DNA from: a virus
Reading direction: 5' to 3' (one strand)
DNA length: 22,021 nucleotides
Virus record (IMG/VR): IMGVR_UViG_3300044681_000727
Location: 1-22,021 of that record
Shown: positions 1,148 to 20,322 of the stretch, piece by piece
How positions within the stretch are numbered: the first letter of the stretch is position 1
Layout: every line of letters starts with the position of its first letter
The notes under the pieces: model-generated
What the model was told of the DNA's origin: nothing
Database searches by the model: none
The model's input: only the letters and a program-made list of their open reading frames with translations
Translations under genes and position numbers: made by a program

Positions 1148-1151
1148 AATA

Positions 1152-2796: not shown

Positions 2797-3296
2797 ACTA
2801 CTCCATGAAGAAAAATTTGGTGGACACACTCAACAATGCCATAATCTGTACTATCTATATGATAGTCCCATAGAGCATTATGAGCAATACTTCGTGCTTT
2901 ATTTCCTGGATTAAACCCAGTCAATATGCCATAGGGAATAGAATTGTTTTCACAATATTTGATACAATTAATAATGTTAGGTGATTCTCCACCAGAACTA
3001 ATTAAAATACAAAGAGTATCAACTTTTGCATAGTATTGAAGAAATCTACAATATGCATTTTCCATACCAAAATCATTAATAAAACAAGTAAGCATGGATG
3101 GATCAGAAAAGACCAAAGAATTTTTATTGTGAAATTTCACATAGTCTTGGGATATATGAGAGGCAACTGAGTTACTTCCACCATTACCTAATATGATAAT
3201 ATTATTGTATTTGTTAAATGCCTCACTAAATTTAACAAACTGCTCTTCTATATGAGCGCCTTGAAGTGCATTAATATAACTTATAAAAGGATTCAT
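2793..3296 (-). CDS. gmhA: SIS-domain sugar-phosphate isomerase, GmhA-like
   Basis: 167 residues, slightly short for phosphoheptose isomerase (about 190). The SIS fold motifs are clear: ILGNGGSNSVASH at 35-47 and LISSGGESPN at 98-107. The C-terminal helix has ECVHQIFLH, keeping the two histidines five residues apart that GmhA has near its metal site; the HxxxE of the family appears as HISQD. GmhA turns sedoheptulose 7-phosphate into D-glycero-D-manno-heptose 7-phosphate. The upstream neighbour is an HddA-like kinase and the downstream one a phosphatase-nucleotidyltransferase, which makes this the first step of a heptose route. The start overlaps the kinase stop by four bases. Other ketose or aldose phosphate substrates cannot be excluded. 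Confidence 0.75.
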   Translation of the reverse strand: MNPFISYINALQGAHIEEQFVKFSEAFNKYNNIIILGNGGSNSVASHISQDYVKFHNKNSLVFSDPSMLTCFINDFGMENAYCRFLQYYAKVDTLCILISSGGESPNIINCIKYCENNSIPYGILTGFNPGNKARSIAHNALWDYHIDSTDYGIVECVHQIFLHGVV

Positions 3297-5575: not shown

Positions 5576-6240
5576 TTTTTCAAATCTCCCCTAACAAATA
5601 CTGTATTAATGTGATCTTTAAAGATTTCCACATATCCCTTATCAGAAATATACTCTCGAAGATTTTTAATATCATTGATGAGAGTTTCATACTTTTGAAA
5701 TGAAGGATGCTCATCTTCCAATTCAACAATTAACATTTTAGGATTCCATTCACTCAGATCAAAAGTTTGAAAAACTTCAGATTCCTTACCTTCAACATCA
5801 ACAACTAGAACATCGAATTCTTTAGGAACTTCGATTTTTTCCATGAGGGTATCTAATCTCATTTGATCACATACAGTTTCACTGAATTTAATATGCCTTG
5901 CCCAATCTATTTCACTATACCTATTAACTTGATCTTCATCTAAAGTCGTAAGAGTATCTCCATAATAAATTGTCTTCTCACCTTCTTCCAAACCTATAGC
6001 AACATTAGCAACGGTAACATTATTTTTATCATGTCTTTTCATACACTTTAAATAATGATCATAGATTGGTTCAATATACAAACCTTCCCAACCATGATCT
6101 GCAAGACAAGAAGTGTTTGAGGCAAATTCACCGTCATAAGCACCAACTTCTACAAAGTATCCTTTAGATGGATACCCAAAATATTGCTCATAAATTTCAC
6201 TCAGATTTTCAATCTGACAAGTTTCTACAGTATCATACAT
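5572..6240 (-). CDS. FkbM-family SAM-dependent methyltransferase (second of a tandem pair)
   Basis: 222 residues from the ATG at 6240, chosen because AAGGAGA lies eight bases upstream; the open frame continues to 6282 without a comparable ribosome site. The SAM-binding strand and loop are FVEVGAYDGEFASNT, followed by YIEP, then VTVANVAIG, and the FkbM signature FDVLVVDVEGKESEVFQTFD; the end is IVELEDEHPS. FkbM enzymes O-methylate sugars, so it may cap or decorate the glycan. It overlaps its neighbour at 6233 by eight bases. The two are distant paralogues, not a recent duplication. Confidence 0.85.
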   Translation of the reverse strand: MYDTVETCQIENLSEIYEQYFGYPSKGYFVEVGAYDGEFASNTSCLADHGWEGLYIEPIYDHYLKCMKRHDKNNVTVANVAIGLEEGEKTIYYGDTLTTLDEDQVNRYSEIDWARHIKFSETVCDQMRLDTLMEKIEVPKEFDVLVVDVEGKESEVFQTFDLSEWNPKMLIVELEDEHPSFQKYETLINDIKNLREYISDKGYVEIFKDHINTVFVRGDLKK

Positions 6241-6868
6241 TTTTAGTCTCCTTAATATAAAAAGCATCTCCCCAAGTATCACCAGACCAATCAGTTTCTA
6301 CTCTGACAAATCCGTATGGAGTTAAAAATGCATCCAAATCATTAACATGTGGTGCATTTTCATACACTTCTTCTCTGTTGATTTCTGTGTAGATGTAATC
6401 AATAGTATTTAACGTCTTTTCAGATCCCTTCAAAACTTCAAGTTCATATCCCTGAACATCAATATTCAAAAGATTATAATTGTGAAAATCAATCTCAGCA
6501 TCGTCCAATCGAATCATTTTAACTGTTTCACGTTCGTTGAACTTAATAGCAGGGTATTGTTCTAAAACGACTTTTGGTTTTAAAACTGAACTGCACATAC
6601 CTTCATGACTACTTACATACATTTCCACTTCCTTCTCTTCGTTTCCAAGAGCATATGGAAATATAACAATATTTGCTTTATCGGCATAGTACCCTAAATT
6701 TTCTTCCAGTACTTCTAGACTTTTAGATAAAGGTTCGAAAAAAACCAAATTATCAACACCCCGATCAATATAATCTTTAATTTCTTCTCCATGATGGGCT
6801 CCAATATGAAGTACACCATTTACTTTCATATTATATTTTTCAAAGAGATTTGAAAAATTAATTAGCAT
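6233..6868 (-). CDS. FkbM-family SAM-dependent methyltransferase (first of a tandem pair)
   Basis: 211 residues. It opens with the phage-type N-terminus LINFSNLFEKYNMKVNGVLHIGAHHGEE, in which HIGAHHGEE is the SAM-binding loop. FFEPLSKSLE follows, then FPYALGNEEKEVEMYVS and the FkbM core YNLLNIDVQGYELEVLKGSE. The C-terminus WGDAFYIK closes the fold. The ATG at 6868 has GGAG about nine bases upstream and lies inside the end of the preceding glycosyltransferase gene. Predicted role: O-methylation of a sugar in the surface glycan; the target hydroxyl is unknown. Confidence 0.85.
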   Translation of the reverse strand: MLINFSNLFEKYNMKVNGVLHIGAHHGEEIKDYIDRGVDNLVFFEPLSKSLEVLEENLGYYADKANIVIFPYALGNEEKEVEMYVSSHEGMCSSVLKPKVVLEQYPAIKFNERETVKMIRLDDAEIDFHNYNLLNIDVQGYELEVLKGSEKTLNTIDYIYTEINREEVYENAPHVNDLDAFLTPYGFVRVETDWSGDTWGDAFYIKETKNV

Positions 6869-7724
6869 TGAAAATCTCCAAAAGTTTATTTACAGACGCT
6901 TTATACGACAAGTTTTCTTCTACAAAAAGACGTGGAGTATAATCTCCTATTCTACTATAAAACTTCTCAAATGTCTCCTCCATTTGAGAAAGTTCATAAA
7001 ATTTTTCACCACACTGATCAGACCAATATGGAACTGAAGTTGCAGGTACTGACCACTGTGGACCCTGATCATTCCAAGAAGATAAATCCCACACAAAAAA
7101 TGGAACATTATTAGACATTATTTCTTGAACTGCAATTCCTTGACTTTCTGTTCCATTTACTAGAAAACAAAATTTAGATTGACTTGCAAGTAATTCAAGA
7201 TCAGATTCTGAATAACTTCCATATGAAATAATATTATATGTTAATTTTTTACTTTCAATAAAATCAATAACTTTAAGCACCTCTTCGTCACTTCTACGCT
7301 TAGAATAAATTAAACAATCATACTTAACGTTGCGATTTAAATTTGATAGTTTAATTCCCACTGGCCAAACTTTTATTTTTTGTTCGGGAAATCCAAATTT
7401 TTGTATTGCAAGATTTTTAACCCATTCAGAAGGAACCACAAAACATTTAAAATAATCTAAATGTTTTTTTAGAAATTGAACATGCTCATCAAAAAACCAT
7501 ACTTGTGGTCCTATCACACAATGCTCTAATTCTAAATTAGAATGTTTTTGGTGTCCAAGATAATCATAATGAATTAAAAAATTAAATTTATACTTTTCTT
7601 CATTTACAACATAATCAACACATTCTTGCTGAAGACTTTCAAGAAGATTATGAACTACTTTTTTGGGGCCATTCATAGTTGAAGAATGACCCCAGTAAGA
7701 TTCTGAATAAAATAAATTAAGCAT
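6858..7724 (-). CDS. GT-B fold glycosyltransferase (GT4-like)
   Basis: 288 residues, short for a GT4 enzyme. The N-terminal half is poorly conserved but contains NGPKKVVHNLLESL, like the GG-loop region of GT-B enzymes; CFVVPSEWVKNL and KIKVWPVGI mark the domain junction. The C-terminal half ends with GTESQGIAVQEIMSNNVPFFVWD, the E-x7-E type donor-binding motif. No signal or membrane segment is seen. It overlaps the genes on both sides by a few bases. The donor sugar cannot be assigned. Very AT-rich and lysine/asparagine-rich compared with the GME gene at 14462. Confidence 0.7.
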   Translation of the reverse strand: MLNLFYSESYWGHSSTMNGPKKVVHNLLESLQQECVDYVVNEEKYKFNFLIHYDYLGHQKHSNLELEHCVIGPQVWFFDEHVQFLKKHLDYFKCFVVPSEWVKNLAIQKFGFPEQKIKVWPVGIKLSNLNRNVKYDCLIYSKRRSDEEVLKVIDFIESKKLTYNIISYGSYSESDLELLASQSKFCFLVNGTESQGIAVQEIMSNNVPFFVWDLSSWNDQGPQWSVPATSVPYWSDQCGEKFYELSQMEETFEKFYSRIGDYTPRLFVEENLSYKASVNKLLEIFNAN

Positions 7725-8838
7725 TAATTTCCCTCACAACATTCAATTCCTTCATTTTTTGATTACATGAATCAACAATACTATCAATAGAATTAAAAGA
7801 ATGTAACCACTCTTTATATTCTAACACACTATCATAAACAGTTCTTTTTGGCGACCATCCTAAAGACTTAAGTTTTGAAATATCAGAACAAATATTTCTT
7901 GTATCGCCAAATCTATATTTCCCACAAGGTTTTGGTTCATAATCACAATATCCATAGACATTAGCAACAACTTTAGCAAAATAATTTACTGTCATTGGTA
8001 CACCACCACCAACATTAAACATTTCATAATTTGCTCTATCGTCATTCATTACTAAAATATTTGCATCAACAACATCATGAATATTCACAAAATCTCTAAT
8101 TTGATTTCCATCTTCATAAATCTGTGGTTCTTTTCCACTATAAAAAGAAAGTGAAAAAATTCTACAAGCACCACTGTAAGCATTATAGAAACTTTGACGG
8201 GATCCTTGAACAATAGAATATCTCATGGATACAGAAGGAATGTTATATCTCTTTCCCAAAAATAATGCAAACATTTCTTCCGATATTTTACTCATACCAT
8301 ATGGATTCTGCGGATTAGAAATCGTTTCATCAGTTTCTACCCAATGAATTGGAGCAATAAATCCACGTGGGCATTCTGGTTCCCAGTTTGATTTTTTAAG
8401 TTCTTCTTCTGATCTCATATTAGGAAGAACTCTTTTACCATTCGAATCTAAATACAAACCCTCACCAAGAGTTGCTTGACTACTGGCAACAATAACTTTT
8501 TTAATTGGAAGATTATGTTCCACAATCAATTCATAAATTTTAGCAGTTGACGAAATATTAACATCGACAAATTTACTAAAAATAGGAAGATAATCTTGAA
8601 AAGCTGCAAAATGAAATACTATATCACAACCAATTAGTGAATTTAGTAATGTTTCACCGTCACAAACATCCCCCCTAATAAATTCAATTCTAGGGTCAAG
8701 ATATTCTGGAATTTGATTATTTGGATGCACAGGTTCAGTTAAATTATCTAAAACTCTAACACTATGCCCAAGTTGTAATAATCTATCAGCCGTGTGAGAA
8801 CCAATAAATCCTGCACCACCAGTAATTAAAATTTTCAT
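7717..8838 (-). CDS. NAD-dependent epimerase, similar to dTDP-L-rhamnose 4-epimerase-type SDRs
   Basis: 373 residues, longer than its SDR neighbours. NAD-binding GGAGFIGSHTADRLLQLGH opens the protein; VFHFAAFQDY and the catalytic YGMSK (about 180-184) follow. Between them is a 50-60 residue insert with GEGLY, RSEEEL and WEPECPRGF, an arrangement known from dTDP-L-rhamnose 4-epimerases that make 6-deoxy-L-talose, although the paired CxxC of some members is reduced to a single Cys. Downstream motifs IRDFVNIHDVVDAN and FNVGGG are standard. With RmlB and RmlC at the head of the operon, a dTDP-6-deoxyhexose substrate is plausible but not proven. Confidence 0.75.
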   Translation of the reverse strand: MKILITGGAGFIGSHTADRLLQLGHSVRVLDNLTEPVHPNNQIPEYLDPRIEFIRGDVCDGETLLNSLIGCDIVFHFAAFQDYLPIFSKFVDVNISSTAKIYELIVEHNLPIKKVIVASSQATLGEGLYLDSNGKRVLPNMRSEEELKKSNWEPECPRGFIAPIHWVETDETISNPQNPYGMSKISEEMFALFLGKRYNIPSVSMRYSIVQGSRQSFYNAYSGACRIFSLSFYSGKEPQIYEDGNQIRDFVNIHDVVDANILVMNDDRANYEMFNVGGGVPMTVNYFAKVVANVYGYCDYEPKPCGKYRFGDTRNICSDISKLKSLGWSPKRTVYDSVLEYKEWLHSFNSIDSIVDSCNQKMKELNVVREINA

Positions 8839-9470
8839 GATTTGATAGCAGTAAATCCTTTATATCTTCCAGAGGGATCTGTTAAAGCGTAATCTGCATA
8901 AAATTCAAATTCCCAATCTGGCATGTGCATGGACCACCATTCGGGAGGTCGGATATGCCAACAATCTCTATGATACTCATCACCCCAAGGTTCTGAAGCA
9001 GACCACAATGATCCTGTAGGAGCAACCTCATCCACTGCTTTTAAAATATCAACAACATCCTCATCACACAAATGTGCTAATACACACATCGATGAAAAAA
9101 ATGTTGGACTATTCAATTTTAATTTTTTAACTTCTTTTTCAGCAAATCCAACAATGTACTCGACTTTCGTTTGATCTGGATATAACTTTTTACTTATATC
9201 AGTTGCTGCTTGCGAAGGTTCAATAGCATAAACTTTTTCATAATCTCTATGGTTAATCAAATAATTGGAAAACCATCCAGATCCAGATCCAATATCTACG
9301 GCAACAGAAAAAGAATGATTATCAAGATTGTTTCCATGAGGAATATCATCTTGATAGAGGAATTTAAAATTATCTGAATTATGCTCTAAATGACCTTTTT
9401 TCTCTCTCTCAAAAGCCTCTTTTTGAACATACTCAGAATTATGATTTTCATATGAATCCAAATTAAACAT
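8835..9470 (-). CDS. Class I SAM-dependent methyltransferase
   Basis: 211 residues. Motif I is clear (VAVDIGSGSGWFSNYL), followed by VYAIEPSQAATDISKK (acidic residue binding the ribose) and VEYIVGFAEK. The middle SMCVLAHLCDEDVVDIL and WSASEPWGDEYHRDCWHIRPPEWW give the typical late motifs of small-molecule methyltransferases. It lies between a GT4 gene and an epimerase, overlapping both starts and stops by four to eight bases, so a sugar or glycan substrate is likely. Not FkbM; the exact subfamily is not recognised. Confidence 0.78.
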   Translation of the reverse strand: MFNLDSYENHNSEYVQKEAFEREKKGHLEHNSDNFKFLYQDDIPHGNNLDNHSFSVAVDIGSGSGWFSNYLINHRDYEKVYAIEPSQAATDISKKLYPDQTKVEYIVGFAEKEVKKLKLNSPTFFSSMCVLAHLCDEDVVDILKAVDEVAPTGSLWSASEPWGDEYHRDCWHIRPPEWWSMHMPDWEFEFYADYALTDPSGRYKGFTAIKS

Positions 9471-10569
9471 TGACTATTCCCTTATAAAGTTCAACAAATT
9501 TTTTAATAATTGAATCAATATTATAAATTTCAGAATAACGTTTAAATGCGTTACTTGAACATTGCTCATAGTATTTATTGTCTACCATAAGAGATCTCAT
9601 GACATTAGAATATTCTAGATAATCATTAACAACTTTTCCAGCATCACCAATTTGCTCAACCTGTCCCATACTAGGAGCAGTATGACTAATTACAGGAAGT
9701 GAGTGTGATAATCCTTCAATAATTGAACTAGAACACTGCTCACCGTCAGATCTTCCATGAGTATATACATTCAGTGTATGTAAGAACTTATGAATTAGAT
9801 TTACGTCACTTGTAGTATCCAAAAAATAAACATTTTTTAATTGAAGATCTTTTGCTTGTTTTTTATAATTTTCACTTCCACCCAAAATTATGAATGAGGT
9901 ATTATCATTTTGTATTTCTTCATATGCCTCTAAAGGAATTGGTGAAAAAATATTTTTATCATTTCGTTGATGCATTCCAAAAACAAATTTTTTATCTAAA
10001 TTAAACTCATCACGGTAGGAAGTAGAAAACATAGTATCTTCTGGAACTTCTACAGGGACGGGAATAACAAACGCTTTACTAGCATTACCACCTGCAGAAA
10101 TCCACCGATTTTTTTGCTGTTCCGATACCAAAATAGTAGCAGCAACATTTGATTTGTTTTCTGCCATTCCAGCAAGATGAATACTATCAACTATTGGAGT
10201 ATTATTGATGTGAATAAATGGATATTCTGGATGTCCCGATCTACCCGTTTGAATTATGTCATAATCACTTTCATTAAAGACTTCCCAAAAATTAGTATCA
10301 ACCCAATCATGAGTTGATACTGTGACATTTTTAAATCCAACATCAAACTTAATTAAATTAATGCCATTACTTTTACAATATTCAACTCTTGATTGATCAG
10401 TATTAATATGTTTAAAATCTGATCCAATATAAGGTGCGGCATCACAATAGAAAAAATCTACCTCAAAGAGGTCTTTGGGTAAATATGCTGCAATAGTTTG
10501 AAGGTACTTTTCAGTACCCCCATTTGCCATCCCACCAAATTTTATAAAGGCAACTTTGATATTATTCAT
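9463..10569 (-). CDS. Glycosyltransferase family 4 (GT-B)
   Basis: 368 residues, standard GT4 length. The N-terminal domain begins VAFIKFGGMANGGTEKYLQTIA, with the GG loop that approaches the donor phosphate. ATILVSEQQKNRW and the PVPVEVP hinge lie mid-protein. The C-terminal domain has FVFGMHQR, FIILGGSE, LNVYTHGRSDGEQCSSSIIEGLSHSLPVI (donor-binding E-x7-E type motif) and GDAGKVV. It should retain the anomeric configuration of an activated sugar, acting in the cytoplasm. Its ATG overlaps the upstream gene's stop. The sugar is unknown. Confidence 0.85.
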   Translation of the reverse strand: MNNIKVAFIKFGGMANGGTEKYLQTIAAYLPKDLFEVDFFYCDAAPYIGSDFKHINTDQSRVEYCKSNGINLIKFDVGFKNVTVSTHDWVDTNFWEVFNESDYDIIQTGRSGHPEYPFIHINNTPIVDSIHLAGMAENKSNVAATILVSEQQKNRWISAGGNASKAFVIPVPVEVPEDTMFSTSYRDEFNLDKKFVFGMHQRNDKNIFSPIPLEAYEEIQNDNTSFIILGGSENYKKQAKDLQLKNVYFLDTTSDVNLIHKFLHTLNVYTHGRSDGEQCSSSIIEGLSHSLPVISHTAPSMGQVEQIGDAGKVVNDYLEYSNVMRSLMVDNKYYEQCSSNAFKRYSEIYNIDSIIKKFVELYKGIVNV

Positions 10570-11458
10570 TAAGTCTTTCTCTGAGTTGTGGGATCTGCCA
10601 TATATTAAGACCTTTGAAGTAGTCTACTCCATATTCATCAAAATGTCTATAGATATCTGGTAAAAGATTCTTTCTTATAAAATTTTCTTCTTTCCACTCT
10701 GGATCAAAATTTGGAATATCTGGAGTTGGAATTCCTTCAATCCATTCCTTTGGCATTTCTCTCATACCAACATTTTGATCCTGATAGCAGATATGGTATT
10801 TGGCGTTAATCGCGCCGAGAGCACCAGGTCCTTGTTGAACTAATTCACCAACTTGACACCATGCCTGCTTGAGTAGAAAGTTATTAAAATATGAGAATTG
10901 ATAATGTAAGACGGCACCGTGCTCAACCTCCAATCGGCGGAGAGTATCATCATTGTTTGGTCCAATAGTTCTCCCCTCACACATATAATTGTATGAATAC
11001 TTCAAATCTGGATGATCGGCAACAATAAAATCTTTAAAGTTACGACTCCATACGGTGTGATCATCACGATAGTGAGTGCAACTCTTCCACAATGCTAACC
11101 ACTGCATATAAACTTTTTCACCAGGATTGAGTTGAGACATAATGTCTCTTGCAATAGGAACAAAGTTTGAAGTGAATGTTTCATCAGCATCCAGACAAAC
11201 AAAATGAGTTCCACCTGCTTCTCTTGCATAGTTAAACAAGTGCTGACGAATCAATCCACAAGTCCATCCACCCTTAAGATTTTCAGTATCCTCATAACCC
11301 TTTACAATCACACCAGCATCTTCCATAATCTGACGAGAATTATCTGTTGAGTGATCATCAACCGCAATAATCTCATCACAAATTGGTTGAACATTGGACA
11401 GATATGTTGGGAGATATTGCTCCTCGTTTTTAAAAGGTAGAATTCCTATAACTTTCAT
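10562..11458 (-). CDS. Glycosyltransferase family 2-like (GT-A)
   Basis: 298 residues. It opens with VIGILPFKNEEQYLPTYLSNV, the GT2 nucleotide-binding strand, then EIIAVDDHSTDNSRQIMEDAG and FVCLDADETFTSN, where DADE is the metal-binding DxD. The rest of the protein (WSRNFKDFIVADHP, then GRTIGPNNDDTLRRLEVEHG) resembles phage and cyanobacterial proteins of this type. No membrane helix is seen, unlike processive GT2 synthases. It overlaps the neighbouring methyltransferase start by four bases. Confidence 0.8.
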   Translation of the reverse strand: MKVIGILPFKNEEQYLPTYLSNVQPICDEIIAVDDHSTDNSRQIMEDAGVIVKGYEDTENLKGGWTCGLIRQHLFNYAREAGGTHFVCLDADETFTSNFVPIARDIMSQLNPGEKVYMQWLALWKSCTHYRDDHTVWSRNFKDFIVADHPDLKYSYNYMCEGRTIGPNNDDTLRRLEVEHGAVLHYQFSYFNNFLLKQAWCQVGELVQQGPGALGAINAKYHICYQDQNVGMREMPKEWIEGIPTPDIPNFDPEWKEENFIRKNLLPDIYRHFDEYGVDYFKGLNIWQIPQLRERLNE

Positions 11459-12075
11459 TTTACATACACTCCAAATCCAGTATCATTATGTGCCCATTCA
11501 GTTACATCATATTTTTGACTGAAAGGAGTTTCAACGTGCCATTTCCACTTGGTTCTTTCTGACATGATTGGACGAATATCATCAACCATGATGATACAAC
11601 CATCTTTTAAGTATGGTTTCCAAATTTCATACTCTGCCTTTACTTGCTCATATGTATGAATTGTATCCATAAAAATCATAGAGATACTTTTCTTCTCAAA
11701 TTCACGTTGAACACGATCAGCATCAAGTGAGTTAAAATCATTTAAAATTTTAACACGTTTATCATTACGAATTTTTTCACCAATGAATCTAATATCATTA
11801 ACGATATCAAGAGTATAGAAGGTTTGATTTTCTTTCATTGCATCATATACAGAAAGAATACCAAGACCCTCACGATTACCAAGTTCAACAATTATTGCAT
11901 CATCATCAAGATTGGCAGTGGCACGATTTAAAAGAGAAAAATATCCATGATTCCCATCTTTGTTAAACATGAATACATTATAAACATTATTATCCCTAAT
12001 TAAATCCAATAGAGATTCATCATTCCATTTAATGTATGGAGACTGTTTACATTCTTCAATAACTTTACTAATCAT
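11455..12075 (-). CDS. Class I SAM-dependent methyltransferase, Methyltransf_24/CmcI-like
   Basis: 206 residues. The SAM-binding region reads IIVELGNREGLGILSVYDA with FYTLDIVND behind it; the later SMIFMDTIHTYEQVKAEYEIWKPYL and GCIIMVDDI form the metal-dependent O-methyltransferase-like site (acidic residue, His, then DD) found in CmcI/Methyltransf_24 proteins. It is placed between two GT2 genes and overlaps both slightly. Probable job: methylating a sugar of the surface glycan. An alternative is modification of another small molecule. Confidence 0.75.
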   Translation of the reverse strand: MISKVIEECKQSPYIKWNDESLLDLIRDNNVYNVFMFNKDGNHGYFSLLNRATANLDDDAIIVELGNREGLGILSVYDAMKENQTFYTLDIVNDIRFIGEKIRNDKRVKILNDFNSLDADRVQREFEKKSISMIFMDTIHTYEQVKAEYEIWKPYLKDGCIIMVDDIRPIMSERTKWKWHVETPFSQKYDVTEWAHNDTGFGVYVK

Positions 12076-12850
12076 TTTTATAACTCAAAGCAGGAGTTTT
12101 GACATTATCAACAATAATATTTTCCACATCATACTTTTCCGCTTCAGGAATTAGATGTGGTTCAAGAACATTCAAACCATAACGAAGTTCAATCACAGTT
12201 CTTTCAAGTGGTTGTTTACTGTTAGGACGAGTGCTGGCACCCATACCCTCATTCAAATAATAACCAAGAATTTTAGGAATATGTAGACCTTTACCATTGA
12301 ATGCCAGACGAAGTGCTAGATCAAAATCAGCACCAGAAACTAACTGCTCATCAAATATACCTGCTTTCTTGATAGCAGACTTTCTAAACATAAAGAAAGG
12401 TCCAAGAATCATTCCTTTTGTTAACCATTCTTCTTTTCCAGTTTCATCAACCAACTGACCCTGCTTCCCACCAAATGTGGGAACAACAATAAAGTTACCA
12501 TAAACAAAATCAACATCAGGATTTTCGTCCAAAGTGTTTGCCATTATTTCAATAGAATTTGGTGTGCGAAGATCGTCCACATTCCAAATACAAAGATAAT
12601 CCCCTGTAGAGTATTCAATACAGCGATTCATTGAAACACCAATTGGATCTACACCTTCAACTTGAATATGAAGTATATTGTCATAAGTTTCATTATACTT
12701 TTCAACAAGTTCAATTTCTTGTTGACTAGAATTATTATGATCCAATACTACTTCTAAATCTTTATGAGTTTGTGTAGAAAGATTTTCTAAAAAACCTTTC
12801 ATATACTTACCCATGTTATAGCAAGGTGTAATTGTACTTACTTTGGTCAT
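12068..12850 (-). CDS. Glycosyltransferase family 2 (GT-A)
   Basis: 260 residues. It opens VSTITPCYNMGKYMKGFLENLSTQTHKDLEVVL, the classic GT2 N-terminus. YLCIWNVDDLRTPNSIEIM holds the DxD-equivalent (NVDD), and GADFDLALRLAFNGK corresponds to the ED/QxxRW region in a variant form. No membrane helices are seen. The ATG overlaps the stop of the upstream SDR gene (ATGA). An inverting cytoplasmic sugar transferase of unknown donor. Confidence 0.85.
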   Translation of the reverse strand: MTKVSTITPCYNMGKYMKGFLENLSTQTHKDLEVVLDHNNSSQQEIELVEKYNETYDNILHIQVEGVDPIGVSMNRCIEYSTGDYLCIWNVDDLRTPNSIEIMANTLDENPDVDFVYGNFIVVPTFGGKQGQLVDETGKEEWLTKGMILGPFFMFRKSAIKKAGIFDEQLVSGADFDLALRLAFNGKGLHIPKILGYYLNEGMGASTRPNSKQPLERTVIELRYGLNVLEPHLIPEAEKYDVENIIVDNVKTPALSYKND

Positions 12851-13695
12851 GAATAATTTACCTTGACTGACTCAAAAATTTTAGAAATACCTTCTTCAAT
12901 AGAAGTTGTTGGTTGCCACCATTTCAAAATAAAGGTATCTGCAACGTTTCGTTTATCCAACTGAACACTATCTTTTTCCACAGAAGGTTTAACTTCTATT
13001 TTCCTGTCAATTAAATTAAACTGACCTGCAATTATAGAAGCAATATCAATAATTTTAGTTGACCTGAAACTGGTAATATGAAGATTATCTTCTGAAGTAA
13101 AATCAGTATAATTTTCCATAATAGTTTCTAATGCCTTGCAACAATCTTCGGCATACAAAAACTCTCTTTCTTCCTTACCATCGGTAAGCATATCAATTAC
13201 ACCAGTTTCAAATCCTTTACGGATAAAATCTGTAACGACATGTGCTTTTTCATGATCATGTTCAATTCCATAAACATTCCAAAATTTAACGATCAATCCA
13301 TTCAATGACTTAGTATAAAGTTCTCCCACATTTTTAAGAACACCATAAGGAGAGTAACTCATGTTACTCATTTGCGATGATGCAAAAATAAATTTTTTGT
13401 TATACTTATGCAAATAAGTAAAAGCATTTGCCATTAAGCGAGTATTATTGTTTATGAATTGAAAGGTGTGTTGGTATTTTTTAAGATACCTAGACCCACC
13501 AACATCAAAAGCTAAAAAGAAAACAAAATCAGAGTTACTAATACTATGTTCAAGATAATCATTTGGAATTGTCGTCATGTCCTGCTCAGGTCCATTGACA
13601 ACATCAACCTCTGTTACTTCATGTCCTTTTCCTTTTAGATATTCTGTTAAATAACCACCTATTTGACCGCGTGATCCAAGAATTGAAATTTTCAT
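12847..13695 (-). CDS. NAD-dependent epimerase/dehydratase (SDR), divergent
   Basis: 282 residues from the ATG at 13695, which overlaps the GT11 stop (ATGA); the frame also holds an ATG at 13707 adding only four residues. NAD-binding motif ISILGSRGQIGGYLTEYL (G-x2-G-x2-G), then FVFFLAFDVGGSRYLKKY, SSQMSNMSYSPYGVLKNVGE with catalytic Y and K, VKFWNVYG and EEREFLYAEDCCKAL. It is more distant from known sugar epimerases than the others of the window. The nucleotide-sugar substrate and reaction (epimerase, reductase or dehydratase) are not readable from the sequence. Confidence 0.75.
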   Translation of the reverse strand: MKISILGSRGQIGGYLTEYLKGKGHEVTEVDVVNGPEQDMTTIPNDYLEHSISNSDFVFFLAFDVGGSRYLKKYQHTFQFINNNTRLMANAFTYLHKYNKKFIFASSQMSNMSYSPYGVLKNVGELYTKSLNGLIVKFWNVYGIEHDHEKAHVVTDFIRKGFETGVIDMLTDGKEEREFLYAEDCCKALETIMENYTDFTSEDNLHITSFRSTKIIDIASIIAGQFNLIDRKIEVKPSVEKDSVQLDKRNVADTFILKWWQPTTSIEEGISKIFESVKVNYS

Positions 13696-14465
13696 ACTTT
13701 TATCCATGTATCTAACATTATCTCAGATCCTGTTCCATTTGTAAACCATTTCTTAGGACCTATTGTAATTTTTGAATCTGCTAAAAATGCAGACCACCAA
13801 CTAAATGTACTATTTGCAATAATATGATTGTTACAAGACTGCATCAAGTACATATGACCAGAATCTCTTTCACCAGAATATTCTGAATCAACATAAATTA
13901 CTTCGTGTTTTTTATTTTTGATATTTTCTTTACACCAATCAATATCTTCAGAAAAAACATAATAAGTTACTTCTTCATATGCTTCTTCAATAATATTCAT
14001 ACATTTTTCATAGTATTGAGAATCCATATGTTCATTATGAGCATATGCAGTTGGATTTTGAATAAAGTCTCCACGCCTAACGTGAATGGAAACCGAATTA
14101 TTTTTAGATATGATTTGATTATGAAGATCAATAATATTTTCTGAAAAAGAAATTGAAAATTTAAATTGTTCTTTAACTTCTTCAACAACGTTGGAAAATT
14201 CTTCAATATTTTGAAACCAACCTTGCAACATTGTACCACCCTCTGGAGTTTCTCCAGTAGTTTTATATTGAATACTTAATAGGTCTAAATCAAAACCCCG
14301 CCCAGTTAAACCATTTACAATAACTTTTCGTTTTTGATTTTGATAAAAAGAAGTATCTAAAATAAGATTAGTGAATTGAGAATACTCTTTAAGAGCAGAA
14401 AGTCCAGCGGCATACTGAAACATTTGATTTCCCAATCCACCTTGCAAGTAGACATATAAATTCAT
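13692..14465 (-). CDS. Alpha-1,2-fucosyltransferase-like glycosyltransferase, family GT11
   Basis: 257 residues. Motifs GGLGNQMFQYA at 9-19, IHVRRGD at 127-133 and NSTFSWWSAFL at 218-228 define GT11. The gene directly follows, with a four-base overlap, the GDP-mannose 3,5-epimerase gene, whose products are GDP-L-galactose and GDP-L-gulose. L-galactose has the ring stereochemistry of L-fucose with a 6-OH, so this transferase may use it; that is inference. Diverged from the other GT11 at 293-1147 outside the motifs. Confidence 0.9.
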   Translation of the reverse strand: MNLYVYLQGGLGNQMFQYAAGLSALKEYSQFTNLILDTSFYQNQKRKVIVNGLTGRGFDLDLLSIQYKTTGETPEGGTMLQGWFQNIEEFSNVVEEVKEQFKFSISFSENIIDLHNQIISKNNSVSIHVRRGDFIQNPTAYAHNEHMDSQYYEKCMNIIEEAYEEVTYYVFSEDIDWCKENIKNKKHEVIYVDSEYSGERDSGHMYLMQSCNNHIIANSTFSWWSAFLADSKITIGPKKWFTNGTGSEIMLDTWIKV

Positions 14466-15508
14466 GCTTTAGTAATTTGTTCAGAAATCCATGTGTATGT
14501 TTTACGAATACCTTCCTCAAGAGTTTGAGAATAATCCCATCCAAGTTCTCTACGAACTACATCGTTATTAGAATTACGTCCACGAACACCTAAAGGTCCG
14601 TCAATATGATTCTTCTCTACCTTTTTACCTGCAACCTTTGCAGCAGTCTCTACTAATTGGTTGATAGTCACCATTTCTTCGGAACCAATGTTTACTGGAC
14701 CAATGAAGTTAGAATCCATCAAACGACGAGTTGCTTCAATACACTCATCAATGTAAAGGAATGAACGAGTTTGTTTTCCGTCACCCCAAACTTCTATAGT
14801 CCCACCTTCTTCTGGAAGATATGCAACTTTTCTACAAATTGCTGCTGGAGCTTTCTCACGTCCTCCTTCCCAGGTGCCTTCAGGTCCAAAGATATTATGA
14901 TAGCGAGCAACACGAACGGGAATGCCATAGTTGCGGTGAAAAGCGAAATAGAGTCGTTCGCTGAAGAGTTTTTCCCATCCATATTCGGAGTCTGGGTTTG
15001 CTGGGTATGCTGATTCTTCACGGCAATCTGGGTTATCTGGATCGAGTTGATTGTGCTCAGGATACATGCAAGCAGATCCAGAATAAAAGATTTTGGTTTT
15101 ATTTGAACCAAGTCTTTCGTTCATTTGATGCTGCATCTCAAGAACATTGAGATTGATCGTTGCCGAATTGTGCATAATGTCAGCATCGTTCTCACCAGTA
15201 AATACAAATCCAGCACCACCCATATCGGCAGCAAACTGATAGATCTCATCAAACGATTGGATATAACGATAAGGTACTGACTGATAGAAGTTGCCACGAT
15301 CACCTTTATATTCAAGAACACGGCGAACAAAATCTACATCACGAAGATCGCCAAGAACAAACTCGTTTGCTTCGTGTTTAGAAAACTCTGGATACTTAAG
15401 GTCTACACCTCGAACCCAATATCCTTCGGATCGTAATCTACGAACCATATGACTTCCAATAAATCCACCAGCACCAAGTACAAGTGCTGTTTTCTTATAT
15501 TCACTCAT
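14462..15508 (-). CDS. GDP-mannose 3,5-epimerase-like extended SDR
   Basis: 348 residues. NAD loop GAGGFIGSH at 12-20. The proton-transfer and catalytic residues known from the Arabidopsis enzyme (C145, Y174, K178, K217) are all found here two positions later: C147 in SGSACMYPE, Y176 and K180 in YGWEK, K219 in GGREKAPAA. The long signatures RYHNIFGPEGTWEGGREKAP, WGDGKQTRSFLYIDEC, PVNIGSEEMV and GVRGRNSNN also match. The enzyme converts GDP-D-mannose to GDP-L-galactose/L-gulose. A 20-25 residue insert at about 66-85 is unlike the plant form. Base composition is distinctly richer in GC than the flanking genes (56 of 120 bases in 14941-15060), a sign of separate acquisition. Confidence 0.88.
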   Translation of the reverse strand: MSEYKKTALVLGAGGFIGSHMVRRLRSEGYWVRGVDLKYPEFSKHEANEFVLGDLRDVDFVRRVLEYKGDRGNFYQSVPYRYIQSFDEIYQFAADMGGAGFVFTGENDADIMHNSATINLNVLEMQHQMNERLGSNKTKIFYSGSACMYPEHNQLDPDNPDCREESAYPANPDSEYGWEKLFSERLYFAFHRNYGIPVRVARYHNIFGPEGTWEGGREKAPAAICRKVAYLPEEGGTIEVWGDGKQTRSFLYIDECIEATRRLMDSNFIGPVNIGSEEMVTINQLVETAAKVAGKKVEKNHIDGPLGVRGRNSNNDVVRRELGWDYSQTLEEGIRKTYTWISEQITKA

Positions 15509-16802
15509 TGTTTTTTAATATGTAAGAGTTAATAACTTCTTCTATATATTCTACCATAGAATCCGTAATTGTGGGAGAACACCCAACAAAAAATACATTA
15601 TCTAAAACTTTCATTGCATTTGGATAATTAAATGCAGATTCTAGATGTCTATAAGCAGGATGAATTAAAAGATTACCTGCAAAATAATTTCGAGTTTGAA
15701 TTTTATTTTCTTCCAAAAATTTAACTATATTAGATTTATCACCACCACAAATAATAGGCACACCAAACCAACTTGTCTCGGCATGTGGTAATTCATCTAT
15801 GCTACGAACTCCAGGAATCTTTTCAAATATTTTTTGAATTCTCAATTTATTAAGTCTACGAATATAGTGAATTTCATCAAACTTTTTAATCTGAACAGAT
15901 CCAATTGCTCCAAGCATGTCAATTGGTTTTAAATTATATCCAATATTTCCAAACACATACTTGTGGTCAACGACTTTATCATATCCAACTAGCCAATTAT
16001 CAAATCTTTTACCGCAAGTACCACAACTTAAAAGATTTTGAGAACCTACACAATAACAATCTCTACCCCACCAAGCAAAACTACGAGCAATATCTACAAC
16101 TTCTTTAATATTAGATGATACCATTCCACCTTCAATGGTAGTAATATGATGTGCAGGATAAAAAGAACAAGAAGCGGCAACAGCGTGATCTGTAAGATAT
16201 TTTCCCCTCCACTTACTACCAAGACTATCACAATTGTCTGCTATCAAATGAAGATTATATTCATCACAAATATTTAAAACCTTATCATAATCATAAGGAT
16301 TGGCAAGAACGGGAGATGAAAATATTGCTCGTGTTTTTGAAGTAATTTTTTTACAAACTTGATCTAAATCCCAATTAAGATCTTTATAATCAATATCTAC
16401 AAATACTGGTTTTAAATTATTTTGAATGATTGGATTAAGAGTTGTAGGAAACCCACAGACAGACACGATTATTTCATCACCATCATTCCAACCAAAATAT
16501 TTTTTAAGTGCCGCAATCATTACAAGATTTGCAGAACTTCCAGAATTAACCATTACAGAATGATTAAAATTAAATTTTTTAGAAAATTCCTTTTCAAATT
16601 TATTAACTTCTTCTCCAGATGAAAGCCATTTTCCAGTTAAAAAAGTTTTAAGTGCTGCTTCAATTTCTTGATTGTCCCAATACGGTCCAGAATAAAAAAT
16701 ATTACTTTCACCCTTTACATAATTGTTATTATAGAGATAAGGAAAGAAATTTTCTTGAGTATCAAATAAATGGTCAATAAAATGTTTTACTTGTTCTTTC
16801 AT
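15501..16802 (-). CDS. rfbH: RfbH-type CDP-4-dehydro-6-deoxyglucose 3-dehydratase (DegT/DnrJ/EryC1 family, PLP and Fe-S)
   Basis: 433 residues, the RfbH size. It is an aminotransferase fold, but the PLP lysine is replaced by histidine: SFYPAHHITTIEGG with H218-H219, the hallmark of the 3-dehydratase E1. Cysteines C191, C249, C251, C260 and C263 fit the [2Fe-2S] motif of E1, with exactly 57 residues between C191 and C249 and one between C249 and C251. The reaction removes the C3 hydroxyl of CDP-4-keto-6-deoxyglucose on the way to 3,6-dideoxyhexoses. Its usual partners (RfbF, RfbG and an RfbI-like reductase) are not in the window. AGGA precedes the start by about nine bases. Confidence 0.88.
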   Translation of the reverse strand: MKEQVKHFIDHLFDTQENFFPYLYNNNYVKGESNIFYSGPYWDNQEIEAALKTFLTGKWLSSGEEVNKFEKEFSKKFNFNHSVMVNSGSSANLVMIAALKKYFGWNDGDEIIVSVCGFPTTLNPIIQNNLKPVFVDIDYKDLNWDLDQVCKKITSKTRAIFSSPVLANPYDYDKVLNICDEYNLHLIADNCDSLGSKWRGKYLTDHAVAASCSFYPAHHITTIEGGMVSSNIKEVVDIARSFAWWGRDCYCVGSQNLLSCGTCGKRFDNWLVGYDKVVDHKYVFGNIGYNLKPIDMLGAIGSVQIKKFDEIHYIRRLNKLRIQKIFEKIPGVRSIDELPHAETSWFGVPIICGGDKSNIVKFLEENKIQTRNYFAGNLLIHPAYRHLESAFNYPNAMKVLDNVFFVGCSPTITDSMVEYIEEVINSYILKNNE

Positions 16803-16806
16803 TTTT

Positions 16807-17631
16807 TTAATTCCTATTACATAATTTAGTTAATCCTTGCTCCAGTTTAATAAAATTAAAATTTTCAAAAGATTTAATTTTATTAATATTAAGAGTACTA
16901 TTTTTCACTTGAATAAATTTTTGATTTTTTGGAAATGGCACTTCAACCAAATTACTTTGACTTTTTATCAATTCTCGTGCATTAATAATAATATCTTTAA
17001 ATAAAAATGATTCTCCAGATGCAATATTATAAATCTCATTTACATCACTTTTATTAATTAAAGTATAAATTACTCTACATATATCTTCAACAAACATATA
17101 ATCCTTTAAAAATTTACCACCTTCGTAAAGATTAATATCTTGATTTTTTTTAAGGAGTTCAATCATAAACCCAAGAACATTTTTACCTGGTGATATTGTT
17201 TTATCTAAACCGTAAACATTCCCAATTCTGAAAATTCTATACTTAATTCCGAAAGTTTCGCAAAAGGAGATTAAGAGTTGTTCGGCACATCTTTTAGTAA
17301 TTGAATAAAATCCAGTTGGATTGCAACAATCAGTTTCTTTAGCATCTATTACATCATTACCATAAACAAAACCTGAACTGATAAAATTAAAAGTTATGTC
17401 TTTGTCTTTACAGTTATTTAAAATATCAACAAATAAACTTAAATTTGTATCAATATCAATATGCAAATTTGTAAAAATGCTTTGATTTGTTGTTGTACTT
17501 ATAAAATACAAGACTTCTTGGGTTTTTGGATATTTACTTCCTCTCGGTATAATTACAACTTGGTCAGAAAACAATTTGCAAAATGTTCCTCCAATAAATC
17601 CAGTCCCACCAAACACTGATATTTTATTCAT
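16807..17631 (-). CDS. NAD-dependent epimerase/reductase (SDR), possible dTDP-4-keto-6-deoxyhexose reductase
   Basis: 274 residues from the ATG at 17631, which places NAD-binding SVFGGTGFIGGTF at the N-terminus and overlaps the RmlC stop by eight bases; an ATG at 17649 in frame would add six residues. Further motifs: FISSGFVYG, catalytic YSITK, FRIGNVYG, KDYMFVEDICRVIY, YNIASGESF. Following RmlB and RmlC where RmlD is usually found, it may reduce the 4-keto sugar, but it lacks the compact RmlD form and could be an epimerase. It is strikingly AT-rich: only 26 of 120 bases in 17041-17160 are G or C. Confidence 0.7.
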   Translation of the reverse strand: MNKISVFGGTGFIGGTFCKLFSDQVVIIPRGSKYPKTQEVLYFISTTTNQSIFTNLHIDIDTNLSLFVDILNNCKDKDITFNFISSGFVYGNDVIDAKETDCCNPTGFYSITKRCAEQLLISFCETFGIKYRIFRIGNVYGLDKTISPGKNVLGFMIELLKKNQDINLYEGGKFLKDYMFVEDICRVIYTLINKSDVNEIYNIASGESFLFKDIIINARELIKSQSNLVEVPFPKNQKFIQVKNSTLNINKIKSFENFNFIKLEQGLTKLCNRN

Positions 17632-18160
17632 ACTTTTCACAATCTTCAAAAGTAAATCCTACTTCATCTTTATTAGACAAAATTGGATTTGAAACTTTCC
17701 AATCAATATTTAAAGTTTTATCACTCCACAACAAAGTTCTTTCATGTTCAGCATATTGGTAATCAGTAACCTTATAAAGAACCTCTGCAGTGGAAGACAA
17801 AACAGAGAATCCATGAGCAAATCCAGGAGGAACCCATAGTTGATAAAGACCTGGTTTTAAATGAACACCAATCCATTTTCCAAATGTTTGAGAACTTTGG
17901 CGAAGATCCACAATCACATCATAAATTTCTCCAGATAAACATCGAACAATTTTTCCTTGAGCATGATCGATTTGATAATGCAATCCACGTATTACATTTT
18001 TTGTAGATACTGAATGACAATCTTGGACAAATTCATACTGTCCAATAATTTTTTGAACTTCTTGAAGATTGAAAGACTCTGTAAAAGAACCTCTATGATC
18101 TTCATACACTCTCGTTGTAAAAAGATATGCGTCTTTAAGTTCAGTTTCTATTGCGTTCAT
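17624..18160 (-). CDS. rmlC: dTDP-4-dehydrorhamnose 3,5-epimerase
   Basis: 178 residues from the ATG at 18160, which gives the normal RmlC N-terminus (NAIETELKDAYLFTTRVYED); the in-frame ATG at 18193 lies deep inside rmlB. The cupin motifs are present: HRGSFTESFN at 22-31, FVQDCHS at 44-50 and RGLHYQ at 58-63 with catalytic H61, then QGKIVRCLSGEIYDVIVDLR, and WVPPGFAHGFSVLS with the second active-site region. It makes dTDP-4-keto-L-rhamnose from the RmlB product. It overlaps the end of rmlB by about 20 bases. No RmlA is in the window, so dTDP-glucose must come from elsewhere, perhaps from the host. Confidence 0.93.
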   Translation of the reverse strand: MNAIETELKDAYLFTTRVYEDHRGSFTESFNLQEVQKIIGQYEFVQDCHSVSTKNVIRGLHYQIDHAQGKIVRCLSGEIYDVIVDLRQSSQTFGKWIGVHLKPGLYQLWVPPGFAHGFSVLSSTAEVLYKVTDYQYAEHERTLLWSDKTLNIDWKVSNPILSNKDEVGFTFEDCEKYE

Positions 18161-19067
18161 ACCACTCAATTGTTTTTTGAAGTCCATAGTCAAGAGAAAA
18201 TGATGGTGTCCAGAAGAGACTGTTTTTTATTTTAGAAATGCTCGTAGAATATCTACGATCGTGTCCTGGTCTATCTTTTACATATTCTACCATACTTTCA
18301 GGTTTGTTCATAATCTTAAGAATTTTTTTAATCAAGTCAATATTACAAACCTCACACTCACCACCAATATTATACTTCTCTCCAACCACACCATCTTTCC
18401 ATACCTTAATTAGAGCAGTGCAATGATCTTGAACATATAACCAATCACGAATCTGCATACCATCACCATACACAGGGATTTTTTTTCCAGAAAGAATATT
18501 TAAGATTGTCTGTGGAATTAATTTTTCCTTATACTGTCTAGGACCATAATTATTTGAGCAATTAGTAATGTTTACAGGTAACCCATAAGTGTGGTGATAT
18601 GCCATTACAAAATGATCACTTGCTGCTTTCGATGCTGAATAAGGATTTCTTGGATTATAAATTGTGTTTTCAGTAAAATATCCATTATCTATAGATCCAT
18701 AAACTTCATCAGTAGAAATATGAATAAACTTTTCTACTTCATATTTCAAAGCAAGATTTAAAAGATTCACTGTCCCGTTAACATTAGTATGAACAAATGG
18801 GAGAGAGTCTTTAATCGAATTATCTACGTGACTTTCTGCTGCAAAATGAAAAATTGTTTCAATCCTATGCCTCGAAAAAATAAGATCACAATCATCTTGA
18901 GATGCTATATCAACGGTATATAACTTGACGGAATCTGGGATATTGTGCCAGTCTGCAGCATAAGTCAACTTATCAATACAGACTACTTCTTCATCAGTTA
19001 CAGTAACCAAATAATGAAGAAAGTTACTTCCAATAAAACCAGCGCCACCAGTAACTAGAATACTCAT
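18141..19067 (-). CDS. rmlB: dTDP-glucose 4,6-dehydratase
   Basis: 308 residues from the ATG at 19067, one base after the stop of the preceding nucleotidyltransferase gene. An ATG at 19130 in frame is rejected because it would precede the NAD-binding GGAGFIGSNFL by over 20 unrelated residues. The RmlB motifs are complete: DKLTYAAD, HFAAESHVDNSI, catalytic T119-D120-E121 in HISTDEVYGS, Y143 and K147 in YSASK, NCSNNYGPRQ, GDGMQIRDWLYVQDH and DRPGHDRRY. It forms dTDP-4-keto-6-deoxyglucose, the branch point for rhamnose and other 6-deoxy sugars. Confidence 0.93.
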   Translation of the reverse strand: MSILVTGGAGFIGSNFLHYLVTVTDEEVVCIDKLTYAADWHNIPDSVKLYTVDIASQDDCDLIFSRHRIETIFHFAAESHVDNSIKDSLPFVHTNVNGTVNLLNLALKYEVEKFIHISTDEVYGSIDNGYFTENTIYNPRNPYSASKAASDHFVMAYHHTYGLPVNITNCSNNYGPRQYKEKLIPQTILNILSGKKIPVYGDGMQIRDWLYVQDHCTALIKVWKDGVVGEKYNIGGECEVCNIDLIKKILKIMNKPESMVEYVKDRPGHDRRYSTSISKIKNSLFWTPSFSLDYGLQKTIEWYERNRN

Positions 19068-19068
19068 G

Positions 19069-19569
19069 TCAATCGTTTTTGAGCGAATACTTATCCAATA
19101 ATTCTGGAGAATATTGGTGGGGAGATTCAATTATCTCTTGCGTTTCTTTTTTTTCTTTTTCTAAAAGATACACACGATTACGAATTTCGGATGAAGAATA
19201 TTGATGTCTTCTCAAATGATAATGAATTTCAATTCCATTATCAAGGCAATATTGCTTTCCAGTTACTTCAACATGTCTATATTCTTCACTCAAAAATCTA
19301 ATGTGAAATGTTTGTGTCTGAATTAAATTTAACAAATCTGCTTCAGTTTCATATACAAGGATTTCATCGACATATTTACATCCCTGCAACTGAATATATC
19401 TTTCATAAACTGATTGGACTGGTTTATTTTTAATTCCAGGTCTATCGATAGAAGGATCTACTTGTAATGCAACTTTTAAATAATCACACAACTCCTTTTC
19501 CATTTTAAGCATTGTCACATGCCCAGCGTGAAAAAGATCAAATGAACTGCAGTTAAAACCGATTTTCAT
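19069..19569 (-). CDS. Cytidylyltransferase-fold nucleotidyltransferase (TagD/HldE-C-like)
   Basis: 166 residues. The HIGH-superfamily site is FDLFHAGH at 10-17 with an intact HxGH, followed by VALQVDPSIDRPGIKNKPVQ, IRFLSEEY and the C-terminal YSSSEIR that replaces ISSTxIR. It attaches CMP or another NMP to a sugar or polyol phosphate, for example glycerol 3-phosphate or heptose 1-phosphate; the substrate is not readable. It is related to the C-terminal domain of the fusion protein at 2047-2796 (both share VAL-DPS-RP, PVQ and a YVD segment). It is the first gene of the 25-gene sugar operon, starting about 20 bases downstream of a perfect -10 box. Confidence 0.85.
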   Translation of the reverse strand: MKIGFNCSSFDLFHAGHVTMLKMEKELCDYLKVALQVDPSIDRPGIKNKPVQSVYERYIQLQGCKYVDEILVYETEADLLNLIQTQTFHIRFLSEEYRHVEVTGKQYCLDNGIEIHYHLRRHQYSSSEIRNRVYLLEKEKKETQEIIESPHQYSPELLDKYSLKND

Positions 19570-19589: not shown

Positions 19590-19618
19590 ATTATACTAAA
19601 AAAGGAGAGTTTATGCAA
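19590..19618 (-). promoter_or_regulatory. Sigma70-type promoter of the surface-sugar operon
   Basis: On the minus strand TATAAT (19595-19590) is preceded at exactly 17 bases by TTGCAT (19618-19613), which matches three of six bases of the -35 consensus. Transcription would begin near 19583, leaving a leader of about 14 bases before the ATG at 19569. The -35 lies in the loop of the upstream terminator hairpin, and a 10-base direct repeat (AGTTTATGCA on the plus strand at 19608-19617 and 19632-19641) covers it, so a regulator site is possible. Confidence 0.7.
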
Positions 19619-19623
19619 CTCTC
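19598..19623 (-). terminator. Intrinsic terminator of the upstream small-gene unit
   Basis: On the minus strand a perfect seven-base stem, GAGAGTT pairing with AACTCTC around the loop GCATA, is followed by C and six T (19603-19598). It ends the transcript that carries the 71- and 77-residue protein genes, or could act as an attenuator in front of the sugar operon. Confidence 0.75.
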
Positions 19624-19773
19624 TTCTACTCAGTTTATGCAGTCTTGCCAAGTTATTATTTTTACTGGGTAATAACTAATTCCCAGGTGGAAGAAAGTCC
19701 CATACACACCAGCAAGAATTTTTAAAGTCCCTTATCTTGCAGAGACATAAGAGGTCAAATTTGGCTCCACCAC
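19624..19773 (-). ncRNA. Structured untranslated region, no convincing gene
   Basis: About 150 bases without a supported reading frame. Read on the minus strand it contains a possible closing helix (GGTGGA 19771-19766 with TCCACC 19691-19686), an internal hairpin (GCAAGA 19740-19735 with TCTTGC 19717-19712), an AT hairpin (GTTATTA with TAATAAC, 19676-19652) and a competing CTGGG/CCCAG helix (19686-19665). The octamer GGGACTTT occurs twice (19731-19724 and 19701-19694). TCTTGC could alternatively pair with another GCAAGA at 19648-19643. It runs directly into the terminator at 19623. It may be a 3' UTR, a small RNA or a leader with switching helices; a tRNA or tmRNA is excluded by the missing T-arm. 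An RNA role is inference. Confidence 0.4.
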
Positions 19774-19792
19774 TTAGTTTTGAGAAACTAAG
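19773..19792. repeat. Perfect 8-bp inverted repeat over a stop codon
   Basis: CTTAGTTT and AAACTAAG flank the loop TGAG. It covers the last codons and stop of the 77-residue protein gene. No T run follows on either strand, so it is not a classical terminator; it could stabilise the 3' end or begin the folded region downstream. Confidence 0.6.
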
Positions 19793-20007
19793 AAAAGTTG
19801 TATAAGTTTTGGTATTTCAATTGCAGCATAAAAACCACAAAGAACTAATATATCCCAAAACTTATATTTGAGTGCAAAAGGAACTACGAAAGCATTTCCT
19901 ATACACTTTACTAATAATCCAGATTTTGGATCTCCCCATAACAGAAAAAAGTATCCTGATAAGAGGAGAATATTTCCAATGTATCGCAATACATCAGTGT
20001 TTTTCAT
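19774..20007 (-). CDS. Small membrane protein of unknown function
   Basis: 77 residues. Hydrophobic stretches at about 9-23 (YIGNILLLSGYFFLLW), 29-43 and 50-72 suggest two to three membrane spans; DVLRYIGN begins the chain and LVSQN ends it. No catalytic motif is recognised, though the pattern is close to small PnuC/MtN3-like half-proteins in hydrophobicity only. No clear Shine-Dalgarno site precedes the ATG. It probably shares a transcript with the upstream 71-residue gene. Its stop codon lies in a perfect eight-base hairpin (19773-19792). Confidence 0.7.
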   Translation of the reverse strand: MKNTDVLRYIGNILLLSGYFFLLWGDPKSGLLVKCIGNAFVVPFALKYKFWDILVLCGFYAAIEIPKLIQLFLVSQN

Positions 20008-20054: not shown

Positions 20055-20270
20055 TTAAGCAACCTCTACGGTTTCCAAATCATTATAAAGATATTCCATC
20101 AACATTTCATAATCATCAAGAGGATCTCCAGAGAATACAACTCCTTCGTTTTCATAGTAACGACGAACCTTTTTATAAAGTTTTGGACTCTTTACATCAA
20201 GGTAGATTTCTCCGTTAGCAGCAAGACGAAGAATGCTAACATCTTTCTTGAATTTTTGAATCAGAGACAT
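20055..20270 (-). CDS. Conserved-type small phage protein of unknown function
   Basis: 71 residues from the ATG at 20270. A longer frame with a TTG start (20291) is rejected because the promoter upstream would start transcription at about 20287, inside that codon. The protein is soluble and charged: SLIQKFKKDVSILRLAANG, then YLDVKSPKLYKKVRRYYENEG, and an acidic end (DDYEMLMEYLYNDLETVEVA). No catalytic motif is recognised. Its own consensus promoter suggests early, strong expression. Confidence 0.75.
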   Translation of the reverse strand: MSLIQKFKKDVSILRLAANGEIYLDVKSPKLYKKVRRYYENEGVVFSGDPLDDYEMLMEYLYNDLETVEVA

Positions 20271-20293: not shown

Positions 20294-20322
20294 ATTATAG
20301 GGTACTTAGAGTTTTATGTCAA
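20294..20322 (-). promoter_or_regulatory. Consensus sigma70 promoter
   Basis: TTGACA (20322-20317), a 17-base spacer and TATAAT (20299-20294) on the minus strand: a perfect match to the bacterial housekeeping consensus. It drives the 71-residue gene and probably the 77-residue gene as far as the terminator at 19623. Such promoters fit phage early transcription by host RNA polymerase. Confidence 0.9.

Follow-up and report, generated by a model that had tools for sequence, protein, structure and literature searches.

Can one short stretch of phage DNA end one transcript and begin the next, and if so, to which of the two does the structured RNA lying directly upstream belong? This question is raised by the head of a long sugar operon in IMG/VR record IMGVR_UViG_3300044681_000727. 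The window (the whole stretch of DNA that was analysed, 22,021 nt) is a 22-kb virus fragment, and all 24 of the 24 phage records that match the junction region are Synechococcus phages. An earlier note had proposed that a terminator and a promoter are superimposed at the head of a 25-gene operon. Indeed, the hairpin, the T run, the -35 box and the perfect -10 all lie on the minus strand where the note had placed them, and we counted 25 minus-strand frames over 3-19569. While the note was right about the composite, it missed the wcaG RNA, the consensus promoter P1 and the recurrence in cyanophages, which are described below. The composite and the operon behind it consist of the following features:

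19605..19623, minus strand: terminator hairpin GAGAGTT-GCATA-AACTCTC, with a 7-bp stem that covaries in relatives and a 5-nt loop
19598..19603, minus strand: T6 run of the terminator, within the promoter spacer
19613..19618, minus strand: -35-like hexamer TTGCAT of promoter P2, spanning the hairpin loop and stem
19590..19595, minus strand: -10 hexamer TATAAT of P2, 6/6 to consensus
19069..19569, minus strand: first gene of the sugar operon, cytidylyltransferase-like (PF01467), with its ATG 20 nt past the -10
3..19569, minus strand: sugar operon, 25 non-nested frames of at least 105 aa, running off the window

The sequence has the make-up of an intrinsic terminator, a GC-containing hairpin with a T run directly behind it, a single C at 19604 separating the hairpin from T6 on the minus strand. 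At about -9 kcal/mol the window hairpin is weaker than those of four relatives (-15 to -18 kcal/mol, on stretches of 37 and 47 nt) because one outer pair is broken (A-C). Compared with the sigma-70 pattern, P2 has a 6/6 -10 at a spacing of 17 nt and a -35-like TTGCAT that matches TTGACA at only 3/6 positions, while relatives carry TTGACA or TTTACA at the same place. Transcription from P2 would start near 19583. The P2 sequence, GTATAATAC, does not match TATAAAT, the T4-type late promoter motif as quoted in PMC3037559. An N4-type hairpin promoter was set aside, as the sigma-70 register is kept.

We compared the element with shuffled sequence. By the strict definition the window holds a single composite, whereas none was produced by 5000 dinucleotide shuffles of the 204-nt intergenic stretch or by 30 shuffles of the whole window; a looser definition is satisfied in 17 of the 5000. 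Taken by itself, the terminator is ordinary, with 11 terminator-like sites in the window against 7.0 (sd 2.9) expected. So is a -10 of at least 5/6, for which the shuffle baseline in such AT-rich flanks is 0.42-0.59, on a flank set partly picked by the composite itself. The weight of the composite lies in its fixed register and its conservation and not in the terminator or the -10 taken singly. Folding of the 265-nt region was uninformative (z -1.1), and the predicted structures do not include the pseudoknot.

An Rfam scan of the window returned one family, the wcaG RNA, which ends just upstream of the composite; the hairpin starts 13 nt past its end. Since 2010 wcaG has been regarded as a candidate riboswitch that apparently regulates the genes behind it (Weinberg et al. 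2010, PMC2864571), a role that two later cyanophage papers repeat in the passages considered here. Upstream of the composite we found the following features:

19637..19748, minus strand: wcaG RNA (RF01761), 42.8 bits over the full model length, barely above the cut-off of 42
19686-19682 and 19669-19665, minus strand: wcaG pseudoknot arms CTGGG and CCCAG, covarying in relatives
19758..19849, minus strand: upstream hairpin module, a sub-threshold wcaG match (21.8 bits, cut-off 42) that overlaps the 3' end of the 77-aa gene
19774..20007, minus strand: small gene of 77 aa from the ORF list (PHROG 2318, function not known)
20055..20270, minus strand: small gene (PHROG 552, function not known); the frame has 78 aa from TTG 20291 and its likely start is ATG 20270
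20294..20322, minus strand: promoter P1, TTGACA-17-TATAAT, 12/12, with 23 nt from the -10 to the ATG at 20270

In 58 of 62 relatives the wcaG pseudoknot, formed between the CCTGG segment and the loop, pairs in one of six forms; among the forms other than CTGG 19 of 22 pair, compared with 1.8 when partners are dealt anew. A module similar to the upstream one, comprising a hairpin and TGGTGGAGTCA..TGACCC, precedes wcaG in 101 of the 121 loci with enough upstream sequence, as found by a regular expression whose motif was picked by eye. It looks like the Rfam wcaG model covers just part of a larger multi-hairpin RNA. Some annotated small hypothetical genes overlap wcaG (S-SRM01 191417-191623, S-SM2 143388-143582 and Syn9 163128-163286) and may be false gene calls. 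Additionally, the wcaG pattern hits at least 80 loci (118 stretches) in genome contigs from many unrelated taxa, which we presume to be chance matches.

P1 is conserved to at least 11/12 in 148 of 153 distinct stretches upstream of orthologues, a count that covers the orthologues within the collected loci. In 98 of 123 loci wcaG comes shortly after the end of a same-strand frame, and in a further 16 the opposite-strand frame is longer and a same-strand frame is also present; one locus has none and eight are too short. Because P1 is conserved and a same-strand frame ends before wcaG, the most likely place of wcaG is in a short unit that runs from P1 to the terminator. The P1 -35 of orthologues is often immediately preceded by a hairpin such as TGCCAGT..ACTGGCA, which sits just after the 3' end of a tRNA.

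Does the composite recur behind wcaG? Two routes, a wcaG pattern and resemblance to the first gene, yielded the loci, and promoters played no part in the choice. This gave at least 130 distinct wcaG loci, all from related phages and distinct in the sense of not being letter-identical; leaving out seven with less than 140 nt downstream reduced the set to 123. A hairpin with a T run follows within 200 nt of wcaG in 102 of these, and in 94 of the 102 the hairpin starts 40-59 nt past CCTGG. At least three quarters of 93 loci have the hairpin 20-24 nt from the last GTGGY of wcaG. A -10 matching at 5/6 or better is present at 94 of the 102 wcaG terminators, and 85 of those 94 have their best -35 at 17 nt, with score ties resolved toward 17 nt. 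The hexamer at that spacing is TTGCAT in 57, TTTACA in 12 and TTGACA in 12 (81/102). A stricter rule recognises a full composite in 81 of the 123 loci; of the rest, the stem is imperfect in 3, a terminator stands alone in 21, a tRNA gene is present in 6, and 12 show neither signal. As a raw count, uncorrected for chance, the loops of 88 of 95 distinct terminators contain a TTG or TTTACA hexamer. Presence of a -10 and of a -35 is only loosely linked at the wcaG-locus terminators (82, 4, 6, 3; p 0.017). We also observed wcaG directly before tRNA-Gly or tRNA-Leu (L103, L104, L111, L112, L171, L195 and S-PM2, which is L333), in some cases with a hairpin that has no T run. Genes behind wcaG are not limited to sugar or high-light genes.

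The stem and the loop of the composite behave differently. In an alignment of 39 different hairpins, 66 stem cells are doubly changed, compared with 19.2 in shuffled rows and 0-17 when the rows are slid, and 99.1% of stem cells are paired, compared with 83.6 in shuffled rows. Two further covariation measures are weak: the pairs with changes on both sides number five, compared with 4.0, a value reached in 21 of 500 shuffles, and there are 15 further pair types compared with 13.4, reached in 60 of 500. Apart from the window, all rows came from a search that required a T run and a -10, TTG/TTTACA loops were picked, and 9 of the 39 come from loci chosen by the composite itself. Because the rows were selected for T run, -10 and loop, the alignment speaks for the stem only; conservation of the loop is carried by the hexamer counts at the 102 wcaG terminators and the 95 distinct terminators. 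Two functions on one sequence would be expected to leave such a trace: a stem free to vary while paired, and within it a loop in which a -35-like word persists.

The distance from P2 to the gene behind it falls within a narrow range. In a collection of 174 composites, 140 have one of six listed -35 hexamers, and an ATG frame follows 133 of these. The median distance from -10 to ATG is 21 nt (quartiles 20-24) in the 133, a set that includes loci chosen by the composite itself and in which loop, T run and spacing are partly built in. A Shine-Dalgarno-like word is found in just 9 of the 133. Leaders of about 15 nt, mostly without such a word, were also noted at the first genes behind composites, which suggests near-leaderless translation of these genes. 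Within the window, a Pfam scan of 8 of the 25 operon frames identified sugar-type enzymes in every case. We additionally scanned 25 different first genes behind composites, chosen from 54 start motifs in 131, a set partly picked by the composite itself. Eight have matches to epimerase or GDP-mannose dehydratase, four to family 11 glycosyltransferase, two to nucleotidyl transferase and two to cytidylyltransferase-like families.

Among 15 cyanophage records, RF01761 occurs once each in 10, nine of them above the cut-off. By eye, four of these 10 named phages (S-SRM01, Bellamy, S-SM2 and S-SKS1) have the full composite with a block of sugar genes behind it, and four others (RN05-S, S-H68, S-SCSM2R and S-SCSM1) have a hairpin and T run with no clear promoter. 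Syn9 has a TTGACA-17-TATAAT promoter and no terminator before a high-light gene, and S-PM2 has a hairpin without a T run, followed by tRNA-Gly. On the sequences compared, the composite is frequent behind wcaG and not obligatory.

Nor is it confined to wcaG. In S-H68 a composite lies directly before a cytidylyltransferase gene, away from wcaG. By eye, at least 12 of 53 composites follow genes or tRNAs without wcaG, the 53 including loci picked by the composite itself. Composites were also seen before hli (high-light inducible) genes in S-SM2 (167143), Bellamy (184220) and S-PM2 (124302). Across six cyanophage genomes we counted 24 composites at 154 terminators, with about 5 expected from shuffled flanks; two slightly different rules lie behind these figures, one of which also accepts TTGCAT with a perfect -10. 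Per genome the counts are 3/24, 4/20, 2/30, 0/21, 9/28 and 6/31, with Syn9 at 0/21. None of 25 terminators in the T4 genome has a composite.

Taken together, we consider it probable that a single piece of DNA serves here as both terminator and promoter, making the locus an insulated operon junction, and that wcaG lies on the other transcript. At the RNA level, the hairpin and its U run would end a short upstream unit comprising P1, the two small genes and the wcaG RNA. At the DNA level, the region of the hairpin loop would serve as the -35 of P2, a promoter of the host sigma-70 type, with the 3' arm and the T run filling its 17-nt spacer ahead of TATAAT. Transcripts from P1 would end in the T run, and P2 would begin the sugar operon about 14 nt before the first sugar-gene ATG, most relatives having no Shine-Dalgarno sequence there. 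The suggestion in the earlier note that the upstream unit can be closed while the sugar operon starts anew is backed by the comparison, which points to the same bases carrying a terminator and a promoter. What the aligned loci speak for is the joint conservation and register of the two signals, the conservation of P1 and the position of wcaG; that both signals work during infection, and the extent of read-through, we infer. Because the sugar operon would have its own start and wcaG would lie on another transcript, wcaG could act in cis on the sugar genes only via read-through, and the arrangement appears to cast doubt on wcaG as a simple leader of these genes.

A rival reading is that wcaG is a leader riboswitch with the terminator as its expression platform, the promoter-like hexamers being a coincidence or a minor basal start. 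It agrees with the listing of wcaG as a candidate riboswitch of exopolysaccharide and high-light genes (PMC2864571), with the tight wcaG-hairpin distance given above, and with some loci, among the 12 with neither signal, in which a gene start follows wcaG immediately and no terminator intervenes. However, an expression platform is at odds with a stem that varies freely and with a fixed promoter-to-gene spacing. Duplex energies of the hairpin arms in the 93 loci also argue against it: pairing of the 3' arm with upstream RNA is -7.20 for native and -7.34 for swapped combinations, and that of the 5' arm is -9.85 compared with -9.65 (sd 0.17). Pairing shared between aptamer and terminator was thus not seen in these arm duplexes, and since the terminator pairs with its own wcaG no better than with a swapped one, no classical attenuator is seen. 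We regard the leader riboswitch as quite unlikely. The short and fairly fixed wcaG-hairpin distance leaves room for an antiterminator acting on the polymerase. A speculative and rather unlikely proposal is that wcaG is a phage-borne antitermination RNA, acting on polymerase a fixed step before the terminator-promoter, and not a leader riboswitch. With wcaG working, polymerases from the strong P1 would run through the sugar operon; otherwise they would stop and the weak embedded promoter alone would feed it.

Alternatively, just one of the two signals may work, either a terminator with AT-rich, promoter-like letters or a promoter whose hairpin is kept for some other reason. The poor -35 of the window, the frequency of -10-like words in these flanks, the loci with a terminator and no clear promoter, and the Syn9 promoter without a terminator would all fit such a reading. 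Against it, most of the 123 loci hold both signals in a single register, the -10-to-ATG distance is fixed, and none of the 5000 shuffles reproduces the strict composite; we judge it improbable. The earlier note had also drawn attention to a direct repeat:

19641-19632 and 19617-19608, minus strand: 10-nt direct repeat TGCATAAACT, 24 nt apart, not conserved

This exact repeat is present as described and touches the -35, but the idea that a DNA-binding protein on the repeats controls the junction found no support. Among 93 wcaG-terminator loci, only 3 (the window, L121 and L159) have 9 nt or more repeated between the hairpin and the 32 nt preceding it. The downstream copy is the conserved loop with its flanks, whereas the upstream copy falls in the variable linker past wcaG. 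At 3/93 loci, the repeat was rejected as an operator, a role we consider extremely improbable.

Overlapping terminator and promoter signals are known from E. coli frd/ampC and from the gene VIII/III junction of filamentous phages. As in those systems, the signals of two adjoining units share DNA at the insulated junction proposed here. Unlike them, it has the -35 in the hairpin loop and the T run in the spacer, keeps one register in many phages, and lies behind a structured RNA. The window RNA reaches the family score and resembles the wcaG motif in the relevant passages of PMC2864571 in having a pseudoknot and in its place near sugar genes in a cyanophage; unlike the motif as described there, it has a terminator and a separate promoter between itself and the genes. 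EAR, the processive antitermination RNA of the B. subtilis eps operon (exopolysaccharide), offers a further parallel in the passages concerned (PMC7858274): wcaG, too, is a structured RNA near terminators at a long polysaccharide operon. In contrast, EAR sits within its operon; the likeness is one of structure and position, and antitermination by wcaG would be conjecture. For T4-like cyanophages, the phage group concerned here, PMC3037559 gives predictions of both kinds of signal, sigma-70 promoters and terminators; they were predicted separately, and the sections considered do not mention overlap.

Within the portions considered of the literature on wcaG, cyanophage promoters, overlapping signals and antitermination, no promoter behind wcaG is described. 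As far as these sources go, what is new is the recurrent fusion of terminator and promoter behind wcaG and its consequence for the role of wcaG, while the components are of known kinds. Given a separate promoter between wcaG and the genes, read-through should be tested before a ligand is sought. Because stem and loop can be changed apart, both functions are directly testable. More broadly, the element would be an example of a compact phage genome insulating a cargo gene block with one stretch of DNA under two constraints.
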